Part shown: positions 40,165 to 52,639 of the stretch, in pieces | Layout: every line of letters starts with the position of its first letter | How positions within the stretch are numbered: position 1 is the stretch's first letter | Assembly (NCBI GenBank): GCA_019694595.1 | Contig: JAIBBQ010000015.1 | Coordinates: forward strand, 1-58,929 | Origin: Myxococcaceae bacterium | GTDB taxonomy: Bacteria > Myxococcota > Myxococcia > Myxococcales > Myxococcaceae | Direction: 5' to 3' | Length of the DNA stretch: 58,929 bases | Translations under genes and position numbers: made by a program | Notes under the pieces: generated by a model | The model's input: only the letters and a program-made list of their open reading frames with translations | Told to the model about the DNA's origin: nothing | Database searches by the model: none

Positions 40165-41031
40165 GTGCACTTCGTGTCCCCTGCCCCCGCTCGCTCCCCG
40201 CGCACCGCGCTGCTGGACCACGGGCTCACCGCGGTGGCCGTCGCCGCCATCGCCTGGGTCGAAGACGCGACCCGCGACGAGCTCGAGGTCTCGGGCTTCT
40301 TCCTGCTCCCGGTGTTGTGGGTCACCCGCCGCCGCGGCGCGGGCGCGGGGGTGGCGTGGTCGCTGGTGGTGGCCGGCACCTGGTTCACCGTCGACCGCTG
40401 GTCGCGGCAGGACGTGGTGTCGCCGCTCGTGCTGGCAGCGAACCAGGTGGTCCGGCTGGTGGTGAACCTCGCCGCGGTGCGGCTGCTGACGTGGGTGGAC
40501 CAGGCCCGGCGCGACGCCGAGCGGGCGAGCGAGACCGACGCACTCACCGGGCTGCTCAACCGCCGCGGGTTCTGGAGCGCGGCCGCGCGGGAACTCGAGC
40601 GCCAGCGCCGTACCGGAGAGACCGTGACCGTCGCCTGTCTCGACCTCGACGGCTTCAAGGCGCACAACGACGCGCGGGGGCATGCGGCGGGCGATCGCGC
40701 GCTCCAGGAAGTGGCGCGGATTCTCCGCCTGGAACTGCGGGCGACCGACGTGACGGCCCGGCTGGGCGGCGACGAGTTCGTGGCGCTGTTGCCGGCGACC
40801 TCCCCTCAGGTGGCGGAGCGCGTGCTCGGGCGGCTGCACCAGGCCCTCGGCGCAGCGCTGGCGTCGTGCAGCCCGGGGGTGGGGGTGAGCATCGGCATCG
40901 CCAGCTGCCCCCGCGCGCCCGCCTCGCTCGACGCGGCGCTGCGCCTCGCCGACGCGGCGCTCTACCGCGCGAAGCGCAGCGGAAAGAACCGCCTGGTCAG
41001 CACCGCCGACGAGCCGGCCATCGCCTCGTGA
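40165..41031 (+). CDS. Membrane diguanylate cyclase (GGDEF)
   Basis: A 288-residue protein. About four N-terminal TM segments (15-115) lead to a GGDEF domain with intact active site GGDEF (201-205) and an inhibitory site RATD (192-195) exactly five residues before it. It should make c-di-GMP, with product inhibition. GTG start at 40165 (a second GTG is three codons on). Its stop (TGA) overlaps a possible GTG start of the ABC gene, so it is the first gene of the type I secretion operon. Confidence 0.9.
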   Translation: MHFVSPAPARSPRTALLDHGLTAVAVAAIAWVEDATRDELEVSGFFLLPVLWVTRRRGAGAGVAWSLVVAGTWFTVDRWSRQDVVSPLVLAANQVVRLVVNLAAVRLLTWVDQARRDAERASETDALTGLLNRRGFWSAAARELERQRRTGETVTVACLDLDGFKAHNDARGHAAGDRALQEVARILRLELRATDVTARLGGDEFVALLPATSPQVAERVLGRLHQALGAALASCSPGVGVSIGIASCPRAPASLDAALRLADAALYRAKRSGKNRLVSTADEPAIAS

Positions 41032-41045
41032 GCCCCCGTTCCCCC

Positions 41046-43151
41046 ATGCATCCCCTCGACGACAGGAGCAGCGTGTCCTCGCCCCCCACCCCGGAGCCCT
41101 TGACCCTCGACGTTCCCGAGCTGCGCCGCCGCATCGCCCGTGCGGTCGAGCAGGTGGCCGACGTGCTGGACATCGCGGTCGACCCGGTCTCGGTCCGCCG
41201 CGTGGTCCGCGGGCTCGCCGGCACGTCTGCGCTCGACCGCGCGGGAACGCTCGCGTGCTTCGAGCGCGTGCTCTCGGCGCTCGGCATGTCCGCCCAGCGC
41301 GTGGAGCTGGACCCGAGGTCGCTCGACGCCATCGAGCTGCCGGTGCTGTCCATCGACCGGCCGGGACTCGCGGTCCTGCGCCGCCAGGGCCGGCGCTTCG
41401 AGCTGCTCGAGGAGCACGGCAGCCGCGACTGGTACGGCGCCGAGGCGCTGGTGGGCCACCTGCCGGCCGCTCCACTGGGCACCTGGCTGGTGGCCGCGCC
41501 GGCGGCCCCCATGGCGGCCCTGCGGCACCAGGCGGGCGTCGGTCGCCGCCTGTGGCAGCTCGCGCGCCTCGAGCGCGACGACCTGATGGTGGTGCTGCTC
41601 TTCGCGGCGGGCGCGGGCTTGGGCTCGCTCGCCACGCCCATCGCGGTGCAGACGCTGGTCGCCTCGGTCGCCTTCGGCACGCTGCTGCAGCCCATCGTGG
41701 TGGTGTCGCTGATGCTGCTGGCGGCGCTCGGCTTCCAGGCGACGCTGCAGGCGCTGCAGGCCCGGGTGGTGGAAGGCATCAAGGAGCGGCTGCTGGTGCG
41801 CACGGCGCTCGACCTCGCGCACCGGATTCCGCGGGTGCGGCGCGACCGGCTCGACGCAGGCTTCGGCCCCGAGACCATCAACCGCTTCTTCGAGGTGGTC
41901 GGGCTGCGCAAGGCCGCCGGGGTGCTGCTGACCGACGGCGTGGCCACCGTGCTGCAGGTCGCCGTGGGGCTCCTGGTGCTGGCCTTCTACCACCCGGCGC
42001 TGCTGGCCTTCGACGTGCTGCTGGTGGCGCTGCTGGTGGTGGTGCTCGCCTTTCCCGCCCGGCGCGCCTTCGAGAGCAGCCTCGAGGAGAGCAGCGCCAA
42101 GTACGCCATCGCGGCGTGGCTGCAGACGCTCGCCCGCCGCGGCTCGGTGTTCCGCAGCGCGGCCGGCGCCGAGCTCGCCACCGACCGCGCCGACGCGCTG
42201 GTGCGCAGCTACCTCGTCGCGCGGCGCCGCCACTTCCGCACCCTCTTCGGCCAGACGGTGGGCACGCTCGCCATCCAGGTCTTCGCCAGCGCGGCCCTGC
42301 TCGGGGTCGGCGGGTGGCTGGTGATTCGCACCGAGCTGACGCTGGGGCAGCTGGTGGCGGCCGAGCTCATCGTGGCCGGCGTCGCCGGGGCCATCGGCAA
42401 GCTCGGCAAGCTGCTGGAGCGCAGCTACGAGCTGCTCACCTCGCTCGAGAAGCTCGGGCACGTGGTGGACGAGGAGCTCGACACCCCGGTGGCGGGCGAG
42501 CCCATTCCGGGCCAGGGCCCGCTCGAGGTTCGCGCGGTGGAAGCGTCCGACGGGGCGCTGCCGCCGGTGAACCTGCAGGTGGCGGCGGGCGAGCACACCG
42601 CGGTGGTCGGCCCCGAGGCGCACCAGCTCGCGGAATGGCTCGGAGCGCTGCGCCTGCCGCAGCGCGGCCTGGTGCTCTTCAACGAGGTCGACGTTCGTCA
42701 GCTCTGCGCGCCGCGCCTGAGGGAGTCGCTCGCCATGGTGCACGCCGACGACGTCTTCGAAGGCACGGTGGCCGAGAACGTGACGCTCCACCGCCCCGAA
42801 GTCTCCGCCGCGCGGGTGCGCGAGGTCCTCCAGGCGGTCGGCCTGCTCGACGAGCTGCGCGCGCTGCCCGACGGGCTCGACACCCACCTCGCCCCCGGCT
42901 TGCCGGTGCTCAGCGAAGGCCAGGTGCTCCGGCTGCAGCTGGCCCGCGCCATGGCCGCGTCGCCCAGGCTGCTGGTGGTCGACGACACGCTCGAGGTGCT
43001 GCCGGTGGACCTGCGCTCGCGCTGTGCCGCGGCGCTCGCCGACCCCGCCGCGCCCTGGACCCTGGTCGCGCTGGTGCGCGACCCCACCTCGACGCTCGCG
43101 CGCGCCTGCCGCCGCACCGTCGACCACACCGGAGCCGAAGCCCATGAATGA
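41046..43151 (+). CDS. Type I secretion ABC exporter with degenerate ATPase and C39-like domain
   Basis: A 701-residue half-transporter. N-terminus (about 70-155): a C39-peptidase-like domain lacking catalytic Cys and His. Then six TM helices (about 175-410). In the nucleotide-binding domain the Walker A loop reads GPEAHQLA (522-529) with no Gly-Lys-Ser, Walker B ends D646-D647 instead of D-E, and the H-loop is VRDP (about 677-680) with no His; only the signature LSEGQ (622-626) is kept. Reading frame and codon use are otherwise normal. GTG 41073, preceded by AGGAG, is an alternative start, and GTG 41028 another. It overlaps the HlyD gene by 8 bp. Export by ATP hydrolysis is doubtful. Confidence 0.85.
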   Translation: MHPLDDRSSVSSPPTPEPLTLDVPELRRRIARAVEQVADVLDIAVDPVSVRRVVRGLAGTSALDRAGTLACFERVLSALGMSAQRVELDPRSLDAIELPVLSIDRPGLAVLRRQGRRFELLEEHGSRDWYGAEALVGHLPAAPLGTWLVAAPAAPMAALRHQAGVGRRLWQLARLERDDLMVVLLFAAGAGLGSLATPIAVQTLVASVAFGTLLQPIVVVSLMLLAALGFQATLQALQARVVEGIKERLLVRTALDLAHRIPRVRRDRLDAGFGPETINRFFEVVGLRKAAGVLLTDGVATVLQVAVGLLVLAFYHPALLAFDVLLVALLVVVLAFPARRAFESSLEESSAKYAIAAWLQTLARRGSVFRSAAGAELATDRADALVRSYLVARRRHFRTLFGQTVGTLAIQVFASAALLGVGGWLVIRTELTLGQLVAAELIVAGVAGAIGKLGKLLERSYELLTSLEKLGHVVDEELDTPVAGEPIPGQGPLEVRAVEASDGALPPVNLQVAAGEHTAVVGPEAHQLAEWLGALRLPQRGLVLFNEVDVRQLCAPRLRESLAMVHADDVFEGTVAENVTLHRPEVSAARVREVLQAVGLLDELRALPDGLDTHLAPGLPVLSEGQVLRLQLARAMAASPRLLVVDDTLEVLPVDLRSRCAAALADPAAPWTLVALVRDPTSTLARACRRTVDHTGAEAHE

Positions 43152-44466
43152 AGCCCTGCCCAGTGACGTGCTCACCGGCGCCCGCGCCGTCGCCACCCTG
43201 GTGCGCACCCCGCGCGCCTTCGCGGTGCTGGCCCGCCTTCTGGCGGCCGGTGGCGCCGCCCTGCTCGTCGCCCTGGTGCTCGTGCCCTGGCAGCAGAACG
43301 TCACCGGGACCGGGCGGGTGGTGGCGCTCGCCCCGGTGGAACGCCAGCAGGTGGTGACCGCTCCGCTCGAAGGCCGGGTGACCCGCTGGCTGGTCCGCGA
43401 AGGGAGCGTGGTGCGCAAGGGCGAGCTGTTGCTCGAGCTCACCGACAACGACCCCGACATCTTGCGCCGGCTGGAGCAGGAGCGCGACGCGCTCGACGAC
43501 CGCAAGGCCGCCGCGGTGGCGCGCGCCCAGTCGCTGCGGGCACGCCAGCGCGCGCTGCTCACCTCGAAGGACGCCGCCATTCGCGCCGCCGTGCAGCGGG
43601 TGGGCATGGCCAAGGACCGCACCCGCGCCGCCCAGCAGGCGCTGGAGGTGGCGAAGGCCGCCCGGGAGACCGCGCGGAAGAACCGCGAACGCCAGGCGGC
43701 ACTCCACGAGCAGGGTCTCACCAGCCGGCGCGCGCTCGAGCTCGCCGAGCTCGACGAGGTGAAGGCGGCCACCGACGTGGAGCGCGCGGCGGCCACGCTG
43801 CAAGCGGCGTCCGGCGAGGAGTCGGCCCTCGACGGCGACCGGCAGAAGGTCGAGAGCGACGTCGCCGCGGCGGTGGAAGACGCCCGCGCGTCCGAGGCCA
43901 CCGCGATGGCGGAGGAGGCGTCGACTGCCGCGGAGCTCGCCCGGCTCGACGTGCGCCTGGCGCGCCAGTCGACGATGGAGGTGCGCGCCCCGCTCGACGG
44001 CACGGTGCTGCGCATCGCCACCACGCAGGGCACCGCCTTCGTGAAGGCTGGCGAGCCGCTCCTGGTGCTGGTGCCCGACACGACCGAGCGCGCGGTCGAG
44101 ATCTGGCTCGACGGCAACGACGTGCCGCTGGTGGCGGTGGGCCGCGAGGTGCGGCTGCAGTTCGAAGGGTGGCCGGCGGTGCAGTTCAGCGGCTGGCCGT
44201 CGGTCGCGGTGGGGACCTTCGGAGGGCGGGTGGTGCTGGTCGACGCCAGCGACGACGGCCAGGGCCGCTTCCGCATCCTCGTGCAGCCGGAGCGCCAGGA
44301 AGACTGGCCCAGCGCGCCGTACCTGCGGCAGGGCGTGCGGGTGAACGGCTGGGTGCTGCTCGACCAGGTGCGCCTCGGCTACGAGCTGTGGCGGCGCTTC
44401 AACGGCTTTCCCCCGGCGCTCAAGTCGCCCGGAGCGCCTCCGGCGCAGAAGGAGAAGGCGTCGTGA
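43144..44466 (+). CDS. HlyD-family periplasmic adaptor
   Basis: A 440-residue membrane fusion protein. One TM (about 31-50), a lipoyl/barrel-sandwich half (TAPLEGRVTRWLVREGSVVRKGELLLELTD), a long coiled-coil arm (about 100-290), the second lipoyl half (MEVRAPLDGTVLRIATTQG), and a beta-barrel domain. It links the inner-membrane ABC protein to the TolC-like protein. Overlaps on both sides (8 bp upstream, 4 bp downstream) show tight coupling. Confidence 0.9.
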   Translation: MNEALPSDVLTGARAVATLVRTPRAFAVLARLLAAGGAALLVALVLVPWQQNVTGTGRVVALAPVERQQVVTAPLEGRVTRWLVREGSVVRKGELLLELTDNDPDILRRLEQERDALDDRKAAAVARAQSLRARQRALLTSKDAAIRAAVQRVGMAKDRTRAAQQALEVAKAARETARKNRERQAALHEQGLTSRRALELAELDEVKAATDVERAAATLQAASGEESALDGDRQKVESDVAAAVEDARASEATAMAEEASTAAELARLDVRLARQSTMEVRAPLDGTVLRIATTQGTAFVKAGEPLLVLVPDTTERAVEIWLDGNDVPLVAVGREVRLQFEGWPAVQFSGWPSVAVGTFGGRVVLVDASDDGQGRFRILVQPERQEDWPSAPYLRQGVRVNGWVLLDQVRLGYELWRRFNGFPPALKSPGAPPAQKEKAS

Positions 44467-45839
44467 AGGCTGCCCTGCTCCAGGTGCTGCTGGCGGCGGG
44501 CGGTGTGGGCGCGCTGTCGCTCGAAGAGGTGCTCGCGTCCGCGGAGCGCGCCTTCCCGGCGCTGGCGGCGGCCCAGGCCGACCTCGAGACAGCCGACGCC
44601 GAGGCGCTCGCCGCCCGCGGCGCCTTCGACCCGGTGTGGAAGACGCGGGCCACGGGAGTGCCGGTGAGCGGCTACCCCCAGGCGCGCGTGGACAGCGTGG
44701 TGGAGCTGCCCACGCCGCTGTGGGGCGCCAACCTCTTCGCCGGCTACCGGCTCGGCGCCGGCAAGGTGCAGCCGTACTACGGGGAGCGCGAGACGCTCGC
44801 CGGGGGCGAGGTCCGCGCCGGGCTGTCGATTCCGCTCCTGCGCAACGGCCCCCTCGACCGCCGCCGCGTCAACGAGGCCAAGGCCGAGCTGGGCCAGGCG
44901 GTCTCCGGCCACGCGCTCGAGCAGCAGCGGCTCGAGGTGCGCCGGGTGGCGAGCCAGCGCTACTACGAGTGGCTCGCCGCCGGGGCCCGCCGCGACGTCG
45001 CCCTGGGGCTCCTGCGGCTCGCCGAGGAGCGCGACGCCCAGCTCGCCACCCGCTCGAAGGCCGGCGACGTGGCGACCGTCGACCAGCGCGACAACGCGCG
45101 CTCGGTGGCGCAGCGCCGGGCGCAGGTGGCGCAGGCCGAGCGTGCGCTCCAGCAGGCGGCGCTCGAGCTGTCGCTCTTCGTGCGCGACGACGCGGGGCGC
45201 CCGGTGGTCCCGGCCCCGGAGCAGCTGGGGCCGCTGCCCTCGCTCGCACCGGCAGGCCCGTCGAAGGCGCCGGCGGACCTCGGGCACCGGCCCGACCTGC
45301 AGCGCCTCGAGCGGCAGCTGGCGCAGGCGCGGCTGGAGCTCGAGCTCGCGCGCAACCAGCTGTTGCCGGCGCTCGACTTCTCCGCGGCTGCGAGCAAGGA
45401 CCTGGGCGGGCTGCCCCGGCCGGAGCTCGCGGCTTCTGCCCCGGCGGAGCTCGAGCTCTCGCTGACGCTGGAGGTGCCGCTGCGGCTGCGGGCCCCCGAA
45501 GGGCGGTTGCGGGCGGCCGAGGCCGCGGTGCGCAAGCTCGAGCGGCAGCTCCAGCAGGCCTCCGAGCGCGCCGCGGTGGAGGTCGCCGATGCGCGCTCGG
45601 CGCTGACCGCCGGCCTCGAACGGCTGGAGCTCGCCCGCGAGGAGGTGGGCCTCGCCCGGCAAGTGGAAGAAGGAGAGCGGGTGCGCTTCTCGCTCGGCGA
45701 GTCGAGCCTGCTGTTCGTCAACCAGCGCGAGCAGGCGACGGCGGAGGCGCGCCAGCGGGAGCTCGACGCCTGGCTCGACGGCCTGCGCGCGGCGGCGAGC
45801 CTGAAGGCGGCGCTCGCCGAGGCGACCTCGAAAGGCTGA
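44463..45839 (+). CDS. TolC-like outer-membrane efflux protein
   Basis: A 458-residue protein from GTG 44463, overlapping the HlyD stop (GTGA). It has a signal peptide (residues 1-18, ending GALS) and two OEP repeats of long helices and barrel strands (for example AKAELGQAVSGHALEQQRLE and RLERQLAQARLELELARNQL). It completes the ABC-HlyD-TolC set. Confidence 0.9.
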   Translation: MKAALLQVLLAAGGVGALSLEEVLASAERAFPALAAAQADLETADAEALAARGAFDPVWKTRATGVPVSGYPQARVDSVVELPTPLWGANLFAGYRLGAGKVQPYYGERETLAGGEVRAGLSIPLLRNGPLDRRRVNEAKAELGQAVSGHALEQQRLEVRRVASQRYYEWLAAGARRDVALGLLRLAEERDAQLATRSKAGDVATVDQRDNARSVAQRRAQVAQAERALQQAALELSLFVRDDAGRPVVPAPEQLGPLPSLAPAGPSKAPADLGHRPDLQRLERQLAQARLELELARNQLLPALDFSAAASKDLGGLPRPELAASAPAELELSLTLEVPLRLRAPEGRLRAAEAAVRKLERQLQQASERAAVEVADARSALTAGLERLELAREEVGLARQVEEGERVRFSLGESSLLFVNQREQATAEARQRELDAWLDGLRAAASLKAALAEATSKG

Positions 45840-45858: not shown

Positions 45859-46281
45859 TTACAGCGTGACCGCGCCCACGAAGCGCGAGGCGCCCACCAG
45901 ATCCAGGGTGCGCTTCGACGACTCGAGGTCGGAATCGCCGAGCTGCACGCAGAGCAGCGCCGCGTCCGCCGCCAGCGCCACCGGGATGCCGGCGGGGTTG
46001 GAGATGACCGAGTCGAGGAGGACGATCGCCAGGCCGCCCGAGGCGACGTGGGTGGTCATGTCGATGATCAGCCGCGAGGCGCCCTGGAGGTCGGCCCCTT
46101 CGGCGCTGATCAGCTTGATGGGGCTGTCCTTGTGAATCGCGGCGATCTGCGCGAGCGACTTGGCGACCTGGGCGGCGCTCCCGCCGGCGTGGGCGGGCAG
46201 CACGGCGAGCGAGCTCCAGTCGCGCTTGAGCGTGGCGAACCACAGGCGCTGCAGCTCGTTGGAGACGGCGGGTGCGGCCAC
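45859..46281 (-). CDS. BY-kinase/CpsD-like protein lacking the P-loop
   Basis: A 140-residue protein from GTG 46281, 2 bp after the receiver stop. The fold follows CpsD/BY-kinase: the Walker A position reads LPAHAGGSAAQVAKS with no G-K-S/T, and a Walker B-like strand LAIVLLDSVISN is followed by the conserved IPVALAADAALLCVQLG. No C-terminal Tyr cluster is present. It is therefore probably non-catalytic and may regulate polysaccharide export by protein contact. That role is inference. Confidence 0.65.
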   Translation of the reverse strand: MAAPAVSNELQRLWFATLKRDWSSLAVLPAHAGGSAAQVAKSLAQIAAIHKDSPIKLISAEGADLQGASRLIIDMTTHVASGGLAIVLLDSVISNPAGIPVALAADAALLCVQLGDSDLESSKRTLDLVGASRFVGAVTL

Positions 46282-46283
46282 GG

Positions 46284-46673
46284 TCAGGTGCCTTCCATGA
46301 CCGAGCGCACGGCCTTGGTGAAGTCGGCGCGGGTGAACGGCTTGATGAGGTACAGCCGCGCGCCGAGTTCCTCGGCCTGGGCCCGGTCCTCGGGCAGGGA
46401 GCGGGCGCTCATCATCAGCACCGGCGTCTGGGTGACGCCGCTCGAGCGCAGGAACTCGAGCACGTCGTAGCCGCTCGACTCCGGCAGCATGAGGTCGAGC
46501 ACGATGAGGTCGAAGGGCCGCTCCTTGAGCGTGTCCATCGCCTTGCGGCCGTCGGGGGCCTCGAAGACCTCGAGGTCGAGGAGCTTGAGGTACCCGGCCA
46601 CCAGCTTGCGCAGGGGCGGGTCGTCCTCGACGAGCAGCACCGACTTCTTGGGTTTGGCGCTCACCGTCACCAT
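46284..46673 (-). CDS. Single-domain response regulator
   Basis: A 129-residue receiver without output domain. Acidic residues E16-D17-D18, phospho-acceptor Asp60 (LIVLDLMLPE), Ser89, Lys111 (YLIKPF). All residues needed for phosphorylation are present. Its start overlaps the barrel gene stop by 7 bp and the BY-kinase-like gene follows by 2 bp, so the pair are co-translated and may act together. No partner kinase is adjacent. Confidence 0.9.
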   Translation of the reverse strand: MVTVSAKPKKSVLLVEDDPPLRKLVAGYLKLLDLEVFEAPDGRKAMDTLKERPFDLIVLDLMLPESSGYDVLEFLRSSGVTQTPVLMMSARSLPEDRAQAEELGARLYLIKPFTRADFTKAVRSVMEGT

Positions 46674-47920
46674 GCTCCCTCACTGCGCAGCGTGAACCCC
46701 AGGCCGACCAGCCACTGCACCTGAGGCGCCTGGGGCGAGCCGTCCAGCGCGGGCCCCAGGAACAAGGTGGCATGTCTAGCGCTGAGATCGACCCGCCACC
46801 AGCGCGCTCCTTCATAGCCTGCTCCGGCCTCCAAGTAGGTGGTCGCGAGGTTGCCCGACCCGGTCCCGAAGGCCTGGGTGGCCCCCGCCCGGGCATAGGT
46901 CGAGAAGTCGCGCTGGAGCGTCACCGTCACCGAGCCCTGGCCGTCGGCCCGCTCGTAGACCAGCGCCAGGAAGCGGTCGACGAAGGGGGCCAGGTTGCCC
47001 GAGAGGTTCAGGTCCACCGACGCCGTGCGCCACTCGAGCCGGTGCGACAAGGACAGCCGCCCCGCGGGCATCACCGCGGCGTTGGGGAGCACCGCCGCCG
47101 GCCCCAGCGTCACCATCGGCCCCCCCGGAGGCTGGTTCACCAGCTCGTCGAAGGGCGCCCGGTTGCCGACCGCGGTGGCCAGGCCCAGGCCCGCCTCGAA
47201 GGTGGTGCGCGGCCCCAGGAGCGTGCGCCAGCCCACGTCGAGCTCGCCGGACAGCACCTGCGCCAGGGTGGTGAAGATGGAGTACCGCAGCTGCGCCTGC
47301 ACCAGGAAGAAGTCGGTGGGCGTGGCGGTCCACACCACCCGCGAGAGCGCCCGCGGCGAGAGCTGGATGGGCAAGAACCGGCGCGAGTCCGCGTCGGAGC
47401 CGCCGCCCCAGGTGTAACCGAGCTGGAAGACCCACTGCGCGGAGCGGGTGAGGTCGTGCTCGAAGCCCACCGTGGCGTCGCCCGACAGCTCGCGCACCTG
47501 CCCCACCAGCCGCACCGGGTCCAGGGTGATGGCGGTGCCCTGCGTGCGCTGGATGGTCGAGAGGTCGAGCAACCCCTGCGACAGCGAGCCGGTGCCCAGG
47601 AAGCGCCAGCCGGCCACCGGCCGCCACTCGAGGTCGGCGCTCGCGCGCTGCGAGTAGTCGAAGCGCGGCGACAGCCACGGCTCGCGGAAGCGGAAGCTGG
47701 GGAAGTAGCCCAGGCCGATGGACCAGCCGGGCGCGGCGAGCACCGCCGACAGCCTCGGCGCGAGCTCGAGGTCGCCGGCCACGGTGGTGGCCAGGTCGAG
47801 CGCGGTGGGCGTGCGCACGCGCACGTTGGTCTGCAGGTCAGCGCGCCAGGTGAGGCGCGTCTGCCCGAAACCTGCGCCCGCGACGAGACAGCTCAGGGCG
47901 ATGAGCGCCCGGTACGTCAC
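46667..47920 (-). CDS. Outer-membrane beta-barrel of polysaccharide export (Wzp-like)
   Basis: A 417-residue protein with signal peptide (residues 1-19). About 18 alternating amphipathic strands (for example WSIGLGYFPSFRFREP, FQLGYTWGGGSDADS, VTVTLQRDFSTYA) end at the C-terminus in VGLGFTLRS. It is adjacent to and overlaps (ATGA) a short OPX lipoprotein lacking a membrane-spanning C-terminal segment. In Myxococcus such short OPX proteins work with a separate integral barrel; this pair fits that layout. Confidence 0.75.
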   Translation of the reverse strand: MTYRALIALSCLVAGAGFGQTRLTWRADLQTNVRVRTPTALDLATTVAGDLELAPRLSAVLAAPGWSIGLGYFPSFRFREPWLSPRFDYSQRASADLEWRPVAGWRFLGTGSLSQGLLDLSTIQRTQGTAITLDPVRLVGQVRELSGDATVGFEHDLTRSAQWVFQLGYTWGGGSDADSRRFLPIQLSPRALSRVVWTATPTDFFLVQAQLRYSIFTTLAQVLSGELDVGWRTLLGPRTTFEAGLGLATAVGNRAPFDELVNQPPGGPMVTLGPAAVLPNAAVMPAGRLSLSHRLEWRTASVDLNLSGNLAPFVDRFLALVYERADGQGSVTVTLQRDFSTYARAGATQAFGTGSGNLATTYLEAGAGYEGARWWRVDLSARHATLFLGPALDGSPQAPQVQWLVGLGFTLRSEGAW

Positions 47921-48525
47921 TCGACGAGCACCACGTCGCCGGCGCGCAGGGTGAACGAGGCCGCCTTGCCCTGGGCGCGGGAGAGCGCCTCGAAGGTGAA
48001 GTAGATGCGGGTCGGGTTCTCACCGGACTTGAGCGAGCGCATCACGAAGATGTCCTTGCGCGCGAAGGTGGTGAAGCCGCCGCTCTGCGCGAGCGCCTGC
48101 AGCACTCCGGCGGAGGAATCGACCACGTAGACGCCGGGGCGGGCGACCTCGCCCAGCACGGAGATCTGCACCGTGCGCTGCTCCTCGAGCGAGATGGTGA
48201 CCACCGGGGTGTTGATGAAGTCCTTGAGGCGGGTCTGCAGCTGCGCCGAGAGCACCACCGGGGTGTAGCCGGCCGCCACCACGTCGTTGAGGAAGGGCAG
48301 CGAGATCTTCCCGTCGGCGCGCACGCGGGGCCGGGCCGACATCTGGTCCTGGTTGAAGACGCGCACGTGGAGCAGGTCGCCCGGGCGGATGACGTATTCC
48401 GCGTCCTGCGGCGACGGGTCCTTGAACTCGTCGACCGAGGTGTACACGCCGAGGTCGTGCTTGCAGCCGGCGAGCAGGAGCGCCGCGGCGAAGGCGGCGA
48501 AGGCGCTACGAGACTTGAGGCTCAC
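47917..48525 (-). CDS. Short OPX (Wza-like) polysaccharide export lipoprotein
   Basis: A 202-residue lipoprotein (lipobox LLLAGC, Cys21). Poly_export domain (about 40-110; YVIRPGDLLHVRVFNQDQMS and DGKISLPFLNDV) and one SLBB-like domain (about 115-195; VQISVLGEVARPGVYVVDSS) are seen. It lacks the C-terminal helix that spans the outer membrane in E. coli Wza, which is also why it is short. It starts 20 bp inside the end of the flippase gene. Confidence 0.9.
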   Translation of the reverse strand: MSLKSRSAFAAFAAALLLAGCKHDLGVYTSVDEFKDPSPQDAEYVIRPGDLLHVRVFNQDQMSARPRVRADGKISLPFLNDVVAAGYTPVVLSAQLQTRLKDFINTPVVTISLEEQRTVQISVLGEVARPGVYVVDSSAGVLQALAQSGGFTTFARKDIFVMRSLKSGENPTRIYFTFEALSRAQGKAASFTLRAGDVVLVE

Positions 48526-50041
48526 GTTTCCTCCGGGAAGCTTCCTTCATGAAGCCGGTGAGTTCCCGCGGGTCGACCGCGCGAGTCACCAGCACCAGCA
48601 CCAGGTACACCGCGGCGTCGATGAGCACCCGCACCAGGCCGCGGGCCGCGTCGACCCCCGCCTGCCGCAAGGCCACGTCGACGCCGATGACCACCGCGCA
48701 GACCGCGAGCGTCTTGGCCATCATCACCACCGTGCGGCGATCGAACCCGCGCTTGCCCATCATCACCAGCATGGTGATCGCCACGCCGCCTTCGGTGGCG
48801 ATCTGCACGGTGGCGCACGCCGCGCCCCCGCCGGAAGCGCCCAGCCAGTGGATGGCAGGGAGAATGAGCACCACGTTGGCGACCATGTTGAGCACCAGCC
48901 CGGCGAGCGAGATGCGCATGAGCTGCCAGGCGCGGTTCTCGATCTGCAGCACCATGGCGCTCATGATCGACACGTAGATGAACAGGTAGATGGGCGAGAG
49001 CAGCCGCAGCGCGAGCGCCGCCGGCGCGTACGCCGGGCCGTACATGAACGACAGCAACGTCTCGGCCCCCACCCCGAGCGCGAGCGAGATGGGAATGGCG
49101 AACACCATCACCAGCTCGACGCTGCGCTTCACCAGGGTGTCGTATTCCTTGGGGTCGTTGTCCCGCGCGCGGGTGAGCAGCGGCATCAGCACGCCGTAGA
49201 GCAGCGGCGTCACCAGCATCGACAGCCCGCCCAGCGCGGCGGCGGCGCCGTACCAGGCCGTCTCCTGCTTCGCGCCCGCCTCGCCGAGCGGCCCTTCGGC
49301 GAGCACGCTCAGGATGAAGACGTCGAACTTGTTGTAGACGGTGTGGAAGATGTTGTTGAGGTAGTACGGCAACGTCGCGGTGATGATCACCTTCGAGGGG
49401 GTCCACCCGAAGTTGGCGATGGTGAGCCCCATGTGCACCCGGCACAGCCACCAGCAGACCAGCGCCTTGATGAGCTCGCTCACCAGCATCGACACCGCGA
49501 TGGCTTCCACCCCGTAGCCGAGGCGCACCCCGACCAGCGAGCCGGCGGCCCACAGCACCTTGGTCACCACGTTGATGACCGACAGGCCGGTCACCGTGGT
49601 GTTCGACTGCAGGAGCGCCGCGAAGGTGAAGTTCAGCGCCATGAAGAACTGGGTCGCCGCGAGCAGCCACACCAGCTCGTCGAAGTCGGAAGTGCGCCCC
49701 GTCACCGACATGGTGAGCAACATGCCGATGGTGATGGGCACCATGAGCAACAGCCGCAGCATCAGCGTGCTGCCGAAGAAGTCGTTGGCGTGCTTCGGCC
49801 GCAGGGGGATTTCCTTGCGGACGTAGGCATCGATGCCCAGCCCGAGCACGATGCACCAGGTGGCGGTGAAGCCGTCGGCGGCGTCCAGCGGCCCGAAGGC
49901 GCCCGCGTCCATCGAGCGGCGCAGCAGGGGGCGGATCAGGAAGCCGATGATGAGCGTGGTGCCGAGCGAGCCGCCCAGCTTGGCGAGGTTGCGGACCGCG
50001 ACCTGCAGGTCCCGCTTCGAGCTGGTTGCCCCGTCAGCCAT
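48506..50041 (-). CDS. Wzx-type polysaccharide flippase
   Basis: A 511-residue polytopic protein with about 14 TM helices in the MATE/MOP arrangement (for example GGSLGTTLIIGFLIRPLL and YYLNNIFHTVYNKFDVFILS). Family PST/Wzx flips undecaprenyl-linked repeat units. It is the first gene of a minus-strand operon flippase-OPX-barrel-receiver-BY-kinase-like. No Wzy polymerase or Wzc co-polymerase is found in this window; they may lie elsewhere. Confidence 0.88.
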   Translation of the reverse strand: MADGATSSKRDLQVAVRNLAKLGGSLGTTLIIGFLIRPLLRRSMDAGAFGPLDAADGFTATWCIVLGLGIDAYVRKEIPLRPKHANDFFGSTLMLRLLLMVPITIGMLLTMSVTGRTSDFDELVWLLAATQFFMALNFTFAALLQSNTTVTGLSVINVVTKVLWAAGSLVGVRLGYGVEAIAVSMLVSELIKALVCWWLCRVHMGLTIANFGWTPSKVIITATLPYYLNNIFHTVYNKFDVFILSVLAEGPLGEAGAKQETAWYGAAAALGGLSMLVTPLLYGVLMPLLTRARDNDPKEYDTLVKRSVELVMVFAIPISLALGVGAETLLSFMYGPAYAPAALALRLLSPIYLFIYVSIMSAMVLQIENRAWQLMRISLAGLVLNMVANVVLILPAIHWLGASGGGAACATVQIATEGGVAITMLVMMGKRGFDRRTVVMMAKTLAVCAVVIGVDVALRQAGVDAARGLVRVLIDAAVYLVLVLVTRAVDPRELTGFMKEASRRKREPQVS

Positions 50042-50189: not shown

Positions 50190-50549
50190 ATGCGCTGCGC
50201 GATGCTGCTGGGGCTGTTGTGCTGGCTGGGCTGCGGTGGTGGTGGTGGGTCCACCGCGGTGTGCGACCGGCTGGGCAGCGCCGCGACGCACCTCAAGGAC
50301 GTGCTGGCGAAGTGTCCAGGCTCGGGCGACGCCGCCATCACCACCTTCAACGCGAGCGTCTGCAGCATGAACCTCTCGAAGTGCAGCGGCTCGGAGCAGG
50401 CCACGCTCGACCTGCTCGCCCAGTGTGACCAGCAGATCGCCGCGTGCGGCTCCGCCGCCGACCGTCAGACGGCGCAGGCCGCCGTGGAAGCGTGCGCCGC
50501 CAGGGTGAACGGGCTCAGCCAGGACTGTCTGCGGGCCATCTCCGGCTGA
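50190..50549 (+). CDS. Cys-rich small lipoprotein (copy 1)
   Basis: A 119-residue protein with lipobox WLGC (Cys15) and a Gly-rich linker. The mature part has nine or so Cys at spacings shared with copy 2 (VCDRLGS, KC, SVCSMNLSKC, QCDQQIAAC, EACAARV, DCLRAISG), suggesting a disulfide-bonded helical fold. No family recognised. It lies on the opposite strand within the polysaccharide cluster. Confidence 0.75.
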   Translation: MRCAMLLGLLCWLGCGGGGGSTAVCDRLGSAATHLKDVLAKCPGSGDAAITTFNASVCSMNLSKCSGSEQATLDLLAQCDQQIAACGSAADRQTAQAAVEACAARVNGLSQDCLRAISG

Positions 50550-51029
50550 CGGCGCCGCGACATCCCTTGGAGCTCCAGCCAGGCCCGAGGTCGTTTCGGA
50601 GCGGCTCCGCCCACGCTTGCGAACCCTGAGCGCCTGCAGGTCCTGGGGTAAGACCCGTCGAAACCGGGGGAAGACACCGATGCGCTTCGCGATGCTGCTG
50701 GGTCTGCTGTGCTTGCTGGGCTGCGGGTGCGGTGTCTGCGACCGGCTCGGGAGCGCCTGGTCCCACATTGTCTACGTGCGGACGAAGTGTCCGCCCGGGG
50801 GGCACGGCAACATCAACCTCTTTGACCCGAACGTCTGCAGCGCGTTCGTCTCGAAGTGCAGCAGCTCCGAGCTGGCAACGGTCGACCAGTTCGTGCAGTG
50901 CATCCATCAGATTGCCCCGTGCGCCTCCGAAGCCGACCAGCAGTCGGCGGAGACGGCCATGAGGGCGTGCTTCACCAAGGTGGTGACAGGGGTGAACCAG
51001 GACTGTCTGCGGGCCATCTCCGGCTGACG
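50519..51029 (+). repeat. Duplicated 33-bp 3' ends of the two Cys-rich lipoprotein genes
   Basis: Thirty-three identical bases occur at 50519-50551 and 50997-51029, covering the end of each gene and its stop. Similarity continues through the signal-peptide region of both genes. This marks a tandem duplication of a unit of about 480 bp with the middle diverged. Confidence 0.8.
50680..51027 (+). CDS. Cys-rich small lipoprotein (copy 2)
   Basis: A 115-residue paralogue of the preceding gene: the same signal peptide (MRFAMLLGLLCLLGC) and DCLRAISG ending, the same Cys framework (VCDRLGS, KC, NVCSAFVSKC, QCIHQIAPC, RAC), but different loops. Identity is highest at both ends and low in the middle, suggesting selection for diversification. 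Function unknown. Confidence 0.75.
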   Translation: MRFAMLLGLLCLLGCGCGVCDRLGSAWSHIVYVRTKCPPGGHGNINLFDPNVCSAFVSKCSSSELATVDQFVQCIHQIAPCASEADQQSAETAMRACFTKVVTGVNQDCLRAISG

Positions 51030-51042
51030 CGGGGAGCGGCCC

Positions 51043-52437
51043 TCAGCTCGCGCCGCGGCCGGTGAGCACCACCGGCACGGTCTTCAAGATGAGGTTGATG
51101 TCGCCCTTGAGCGACCAGTGGTCGATGTACTGCATGTCCAGGTACATCCACTGCTCGAAGGAGATCTGGTTGCGGCCCGACACCTGCCAGATGCAGGTGA
51201 GGCCCGGGCGCACCGACAGGCGGCGGCGCTGCCACGCCTCGTACTTCGCCACCTCGGGCGGCACCGGCGGGCGGGGGCCGACGACGCTCATGTCGCCGCG
51301 GAGCACGTTGATGAGCTGGGGCAGCTCGTCGATGGAGAACTTGCGGATGAAGCGACCGATGCGCGTCACGCGCGGGTCGTTCTTCATCTTGAACACCGGG
51401 CCCGACTGCTCGTTGAGCTTCTCGAGCTTGGCCTTCAGCTCCTCGGCGTTCACCACCATGCTGCGGAACTTGAGCATGTTGAACGGCTTGCCGTGCAAGC
51501 CGGTGCGCACCTGCTTGAAGAAGATGGGGCCGCGCGAGGTGAGCTTGATGATGATCGCCACGCCGGCGAGCAGCGGGAAGAGCAGCCACAGCGCCACCGC
51601 CGACGCCACGATGTCGAACAGGCGCTTGATGGCCATCTGCGACGGCTTCACGTCGATGGAGACGTAGTGAATGTACCCGTCGGCGATGGCGCGGCTCGCC
51701 ACCGGGCGCGCGCGGTCGAGGCGGAAGCTGTAGGCGGGCAGCGCGAACGGCAAGCCGAACTTCTCGCAGACCTTGATGGCCGCCTGCATCGCCTCGGCGT
51801 GCTTGAGCGTGCTGCCGGCGATGTACACCTCGCTCACCGGCACGGTGCGCAGGATGCCTTCGAGCTCGCCCACGGTGCCCAGGAAGCTCGCCTTGAGCGC
51901 GTCGGGCCGCTGCTCGTCGTCGAAGCGCAGGAAGCCCGCGACGTGGCGGCGCCCCTTGCGCTGGATGTCCTCGCAGGTGATGCGGCCCATCGGCCCGGTG
52001 CCGATGATGAGCACGTCATCGAGCGGGCCTTCGCTCGCGGCGAGGTGGCGGAAGATGCCCACCCGCAAGACGAGCGCCACCGGCCAGACGGTCATCAGGA
52101 ACTGCGGCACGCGCGGCAGGCTGGTCGACTCGGGGCCCACCAGCGTCACCACCGTGAGCACGGTGGTCACCGCCAGCACCAGGATGCTGACCAGGGCGAT
52201 GTCGTCCATCACCTCGCGCTCGGCGCCGGGGTCGTAGTGGCGCAGCGCGGTGGCGGTGATGAGCCACACCGCGCTCGCCGCCACGCCGAACCACACCAGC
52301 TCGGCGTGCACGGTGCCATCGGTGCGGCCGCTCCACATCGCGGCGATCATCACCGACGCCAGCAGCCACACGAGGTCGATGCCCAGGTTGAGCTTCGACG
52401 AGAGGCCTGGGGCGAAGCTGCCCTGGGCGGGGGTCAT
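51043..52437 (-). CDS. Polyprenyl glycosylphosphotransferase (initiating enzyme)
   Basis: A 464-residue WbaP/EpsZ-type protein (start ATG 52437; GTG 52446 possible). Four to five N-terminal TM helices, a CoA-binding-like Rossmann region (DVLIIGTGPMGR), a fifth TM, then the catalytic domain: RLFDIVASAVALWLLFPLL, KLTSRGPIFFKQVRTG, FKMKNDPRVTRIGR, SIDELPQLINVLRGDMS and GRNQISFEQW. It transfers a sugar-1-phosphate to undecaprenyl phosphate to start repeat-unit assembly. It is divergent from the WecG/TagA transferase. Confidence 0.92.
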   Translation of the reverse strand: MTPAQGSFAPGLSSKLNLGIDLVWLLASVMIAAMWSGRTDGTVHAELVWFGVAASAVWLITATALRHYDPGAEREVMDDIALVSILVLAVTTVLTVVTLVGPESTSLPRVPQFLMTVWPVALVLRVGIFRHLAASEGPLDDVLIIGTGPMGRITCEDIQRKGRRHVAGFLRFDDEQRPDALKASFLGTVGELEGILRTVPVSEVYIAGSTLKHAEAMQAAIKVCEKFGLPFALPAYSFRLDRARPVASRAIADGYIHYVSIDVKPSQMAIKRLFDIVASAVALWLLFPLLAGVAIIIKLTSRGPIFFKQVRTGLHGKPFNMLKFRSMVVNAEELKAKLEKLNEQSGPVFKMKNDPRVTRIGRFIRKFSIDELPQLINVLRGDMSVVGPRPPVPPEVAKYEAWQRRRLSVRPGLTCIWQVSGRNQISFEQWMYLDMQYIDHWSLKGDINLILKTVPVVLTGRGAS

Positions 52438-52639
52438 CGCTGGCACCTGTCGGGGGAAGTCCGCATGGTCAGAAGTGGCCGTGGATTATCGACGCTTCGA
52501 GGCTGCTTGTGAGTGTTAGGCGCTTTCACTTCCTGATTCCACTTGCGCCTCAACACGTTAGGAGTTCTCGAGGTCAATAACACACCGCGTCAGGACCTCG
52601 TCAACCCCGCCGCCCGGGCCGCTGGTAAGGAAGCGGCCC

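Follow-up and report, generated by a model that had tools for sequence, protein, structure and literature searches.

Does a small kinase-like protein encoded directly behind a phosphorylatable receiver act together with that receiver, as a switch that replaces tyrosine phosphorylation in the control of polysaccharide export, or does each of the two serve another partner in the same pathway? The question is raised by a gene pair on the minus strand of the window, which here means the whole stretch of 58,929 nucleotides that was analysed (Myxococcaceae bacterium, contig JAIBBQ010000015.1). The pair and the export genes beside it are as follows.

45859..46281, minus strand: predicted ecpK orthologue, a stand-alone BY pseudokinase of 140 aa with a GTG start (fold and 39% identity to EcpK).
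46284..46673, minus strand: predicted epsW orthologue, a single-domain response regulator of 129 aa with an ATG start (Pfam Response_reg, 1.7e-25).
46667..47920, minus strand: epsX-like outer-membrane beta-barrel export protein (NCBIfam EpsX NF041842, E 2.6e-26, below cut-off).
47917..48525, minus strand: epsY-like periplasmic polysaccharide export (OPX) protein (Pfam Poly_export and SLBB; NCBIfam EpsY, E 4.4e-72, below cut-off).
48506..50041, minus strand: Wzx-type flippase (Pfam Polysacc_synt_3 and Polysacc_synt).
51043..52446, minus strand: epsZ-like phosphoglycosyl transferase (Pfam Bac_transf, 1.5e-69; NCBIfam EpsZ, 742 bits, cut-off 800).

The original prediction had the 140-residue protein translated 2 bp after a receiver in a polysaccharide export setting; both open reading frames are indeed present, with the GTG of the 140-aa frame 2 nt past the TGA stop of the receiver, and export genes lie upstream on the same strand in the order EpsZ-like, Wzx flippase, EpsY-like, EpsX-like. 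The 140-aa frame is not a chance one, because relatives (E <= 1e-6) are present in 107 of the 145 genomes of the order. The spacing suggests that the pair is co-transcribed at the end of the exopolysaccharide (EPS) export gene run. A convergent run on the plus strand (40165-45839), comprising genes for a GGDEF diguanylate cyclase, an ABC transporter, and HlyD-type and TolC-type proteins, stops 20 nt short of the ecpK 3' end. Also on the plus strand, between the flippase gene and epsZ, are two tandem, mutually similar small genes (50259-50549 and 50680-51027) for putative lipoproteins with a CDRLGSA motif.

The receiver, as read from its sequence, has an acidic pair (D17/D18), the phospho-acceptor D60, S89, and K111. 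Its best NCBIfam model is EpsW (NF041866) at 114.9 bits, below a cut-off of 200 bits that is reached in just 39 of the 145 genomes of the order; the NCBIfam EpsW, EpsV, EpsX, EpsY, and EpsZ models are each the best-scoring of their kind here, all under their strict cut-offs. Like EpsW of Myxococcus xanthus (PMC4671073; PMC12802240), the receiver is a single domain with an intact phosphorylation site and follows epsX; it differs from that protein in falling under the EpsW equivalog cut-off and in having no epsV behind it. At the level of sequence the receiver is taken as the EpsW orthologue. M. xanthus EpsW is phosphorylated by DifE, with D58 required (PMC4671073), and proximity labelling together with a heterologous assay indicates that EpsW~P acts post-translationally on the phosphoglycosyl transferase EpsZ, activating this first enzyme (PMC12802240, mBio, November 2025). 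The EpsZ-like protein of the window matches the solved WbaP structure over the catalytic domain only.

The 140-residue protein had been read as a CpsD-type fold that lacks the Walker A lysine and the tyrosine cluster, and both halves of that reading hold. The first strand is followed by PAHAGGSA, without a GK[ST] Walker A, and the protein contains no tyrosine; the Walker A, A', and B consensus and the Tyr-rich tail are absent, and a single Walker B-like aspartate is retained (D90, after the third strand, IVLLDSV), which is nearly invariant among 20 relatives. The aligned EcpK-family sequences have no GK[ST] either. AlphaFold2, given a 14-sequence alignment, predicted a five-stranded alternating alpha/beta, BYK-like Rossmann fold (pLDDT 85.7; 64-68 for the other four models). 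When this model was compared with the PDB by Foldseek, the top 45 matches were all BY-kinase domains (Wzc, Etk, CapAB, VpsO), the best of them Wzc 3la6 (E 1.8e-4, probability 1.00); VIA-align gave Z 15.1 for CapA1B1 and 14.7 for Wzc, with 138-139 of 140 residues aligned, the next families being TM0796, SRP GTPases, and MinD at Z about 10.

This kinship is seen by structure and was not revealed by sequence-only searches: Pfam returned 0 families for the protein and chance matches only for its 20 relatives, NCBIfam nothing but a weak MreB match, and the PDB sequence search only designed ankyrins and weak MreB/MinD matches. CapB/CpsD and the kinase domain of Wzc share the fold over its full length (Z 12-15) but carry Walker A, A', and B and a tyrosine cluster, whereas the 140-aa protein has neither P-loop nor tyrosines; with no GK[ST] at the Walker A position and without the Tyr cluster, it does not qualify as an active BY-kinase (a CapB/CpsD/Wzc domain). 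The fold match and the lost motifs together bear out the proposal that a kinase-dead protein of BY-kinase fold substitutes for the tyrosine kinase in polysaccharide export.

That idea, though right, was already in print: a 2025 paper describes EcpK (MXAN_7447, also WzeX), a BY pseudokinase that belongs to the EPS pathway of M. xanthus (PMC12004946). EcpK is required for EPS, stabilises the co-polymerase EpsV, and binds it by two-hybrid assay; the proposal is that EcpK serves as a scaffold in place of phosphorylation, and its Glu59 is predicted to contribute to anchoring the tail of EpsV (PMC12004946). In a homologue from M. xanthus AM003, a TTG lies exactly 14 codons above the ATG, and positions 52, 59, and 131 are glutamates; since the start codon and E52/E59/E131 agree with the published description (PMC12004946), this homologue is EcpK. 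The 140-aa protein matches it at 52 of 135 positions (39% identity, E 1e-32) and is assigned from this alignment as the EcpK orthologue. In a scan of named genomes, based on an alignment of five sequences, EcpK relatives were found in Archangium, Hyalangium, Citreicoccus, Corallococcus, and Myxococcus. A typical Myxococcus ecpK also occurs in a public record under the title Comamonas sp. KCTC 72670, which has probably been misnamed or is a mixed assembly.

The protein of the window and M. xanthus EcpK (PMC12004946) have in common the fold, the lost Walker and Tyr motifs, the EPS pathway genes, and a genome in which the PCP partner EpsV lacks a BYK domain. They differ in length, the former being 32 residues shorter and ending at the equivalent of residue 155 of 172, so that the Lys/Arg-rich C-terminal helix is missing; that helix is found in M. 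xanthus EcpK and several orthologues and is not defining. Glu59 is replaced by Gln (Q45), and ecpK lies directly behind epsW here, whereas in M. xanthus it is in a second cluster. HfsB and HfsA of the Caulobacter holdfast system are likewise a stand-alone BY pseudokinase and a PCP-2 without kinase domain (described in PMC12004946); they serve another polysaccharide in another lineage, and the likeness to EcpK/EpsV is drawn from the published description.

The candidate EpsV is encoded elsewhere in the source genome (7.3 Mb in 394 contigs, 99% complete). One Wzz-type protein exceeds the Pfam cut-off, on another contig (C164): an EpsV-like protein of 494 aa (408 bits to NF041864, below the strict cut-off), with a tail that ends WQVEKKLGIPVLADIRQV, without a BYK domain. 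Its gene adjoins a glycosyltransferase gene and one that, read by eye, would encode a Wzy polymerase. No canonical stand-alone BYK was found in this genome by a TIGR01007 search; an active kinase elsewhere that serves EpsV was considered and rejected, as the TIGR01007 matches are MinD/FlhG/ParA-like and below cut-off.

Across the 145 genomes of the order, EcpK relatives were found in 107, EpsV in 113, and EpsW (counted at E <= 1e-22) in 100. EpsV is also present in 105 of the 107 EcpK genomes, a script count that omitted some genomes and was corrected by hand for G052, G073, G080, and G084; the two without it are G085 and G052, the latter a marginal case. EpsW directly adjoins EpsV in 71 of 86 cases, and the distance between EcpK and EpsV is 1-6 kb in 36 cases and 6-60 kb in 37; the usual order in Archangium and Hyalangium, identified by name, is receiver, EpsV, EcpK. 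EcpK is adjacent to EpsW in 8 loci only, mostly in one small clade. In G020 a single open reading frame of 662 aa matches EpsV in one part (E 4e-69) and EcpK in another (E 4e-19). This fusion (contig C22, L053:6848-8836, minus strand) has no Walker A lysine in its EcpK-like domain; about 2.2 kb from it on the same contig is another EcpK relative, this one stand-alone. A receiver-EcpK fusion was not seen among the loci studied.

These data bear on the most durable of the other explanations, in which phosphorylated EpsW binds EcpK directly and thereby controls EpsV assembly and export. In its favour, only 2 nt separate the two genes here, four related genomes have them overlapping by 4 nt, and both products work in one pathway; even so, such a switch is unlikely. 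Adjacency is confined to the 8 loci, EpsV is both the usual neighbour of EpsW and the usual companion of EcpK, and the fusion joins EcpK to EpsV, not to a receiver. One family (f5) keeps EcpK and EpsV with no convincing EpsW relative at E <= 1e-22. In M. xanthus, proximity labelling of EpsW pointed to EpsZ, and EcpK is not named among the phosphorylation-dependent hits (PMC12802240). Of the pseudokinase/receiver switch first proposed, the role of the pseudokinase in export is therefore supported and the receiver as its partner is not: a search for fused or paired homologues yields the EpsV-EcpK fusion and a pair that adjoins mostly in one clade. With adjacency as its sole support, the receiver-pseudokinase switch is not supported.

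The adjacency of the two genes has a probable explanation in their history. A tree places five of the adjacent-pair genomes (G000, G021, G005, G033, and G019) in one group (support 87/89), with a further one, G012, apart from it, and in all five epsV is on a different contig. In most relatives the epsV-glycosyltransferase-wzy block separates epsW from ecpK. With that block at another place here, the contact between the two genes is best taken as a remnant, with close coupling kept since, as the 2-nt spacing in the window and the 4-nt overlaps between receiver stop and ecpK start in four of these genomes suggest. EpsW-EcpK as a translationally coupled pair in one clade may be a new, if small, point. 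It is improbable that the coupled proteins form a functional complex in this clade, in which a receiver-bound pseudokinase would link EpsV assembly, in addition to EpsZ, to Dif-type signalling.

Two members of this group (G033 and G019; loci L037 and L038) and G140, all of the same family, have genomes of 2.1-2.7 Mb (88-99% complete) that still hold EpsW, EcpK, and EpsV. Elsewhere in the order, G008 has a second pair of receiver and EcpK-like genes, divergently oriented, near a second epsZ-like gene (L057:9108-10394, contig C3), separate from its main eps cluster on contig C4.

The short protein is very unlikely to be a decaying or truncated ecpK product that no longer works: it is shorter than M. 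xanthus EcpK and lacks the C-terminal helix and Glu59, but its reading frame is intact, it is 67-72% identical to the G005 and G021 relatives along its whole length, many relatives in other genera likewise stop soon after the last strand, and the predicted fold is complete. An unrelated P-loop-derived (MinD/ParA-like) protein that merely resembles BY-kinases can be practically dismissed: Z is about 9-10 for MinD, SRP GTPases, and ParA, well below the 12-15 of the BY-kinases, whose matches cover residues 1-140, and both the orthology to EcpK and the existence of a fusion with an EpsV-like protein assign the 140-aa protein to the co-polymerase kinases.

The preferred reading, in which EcpK and EpsW serve different partners in one pathway, is very probably correct. 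The 140-aa EcpK would be a lone BY-kinase domain in which nucleotide binding and tyrosine phosphorylation have been lost. Its most likely docking site is the short cytoplasmic tail of EpsV, which is encoded on another contig, and its most likely role is that of a scaffold in EpsV assembly; polymerisation and export of EPS would then need no tyrosine phosphorylation. Beside it, phosphorylated EpsW most likely activates EpsZ, the first enzyme. The fold, the missing motifs, orthology, gene order, co-occurrence, and the EpsV-EcpK fusion were observed in these genomes, and the EcpK-EpsV and EpsW-EpsZ interactions are carried over from M. xanthus.

The pair consists of known parts of the EPS (slime sugar) machinery, and the observation made at this locus is real and already explained in M. 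xanthus. What is added is, first, EcpK in a further lineage, where the protein takes a minimal form without C-terminal helix or tyrosine. Second, the partnership of EcpK and EpsV described in the literature gains independent support from their almost complete co-occurrence and from a natural fusion. EpsW and EcpK can, moreover, become one translationally coupled unit, in which it would cost little to learn whether two regulators of the same pathway ever come into contact.
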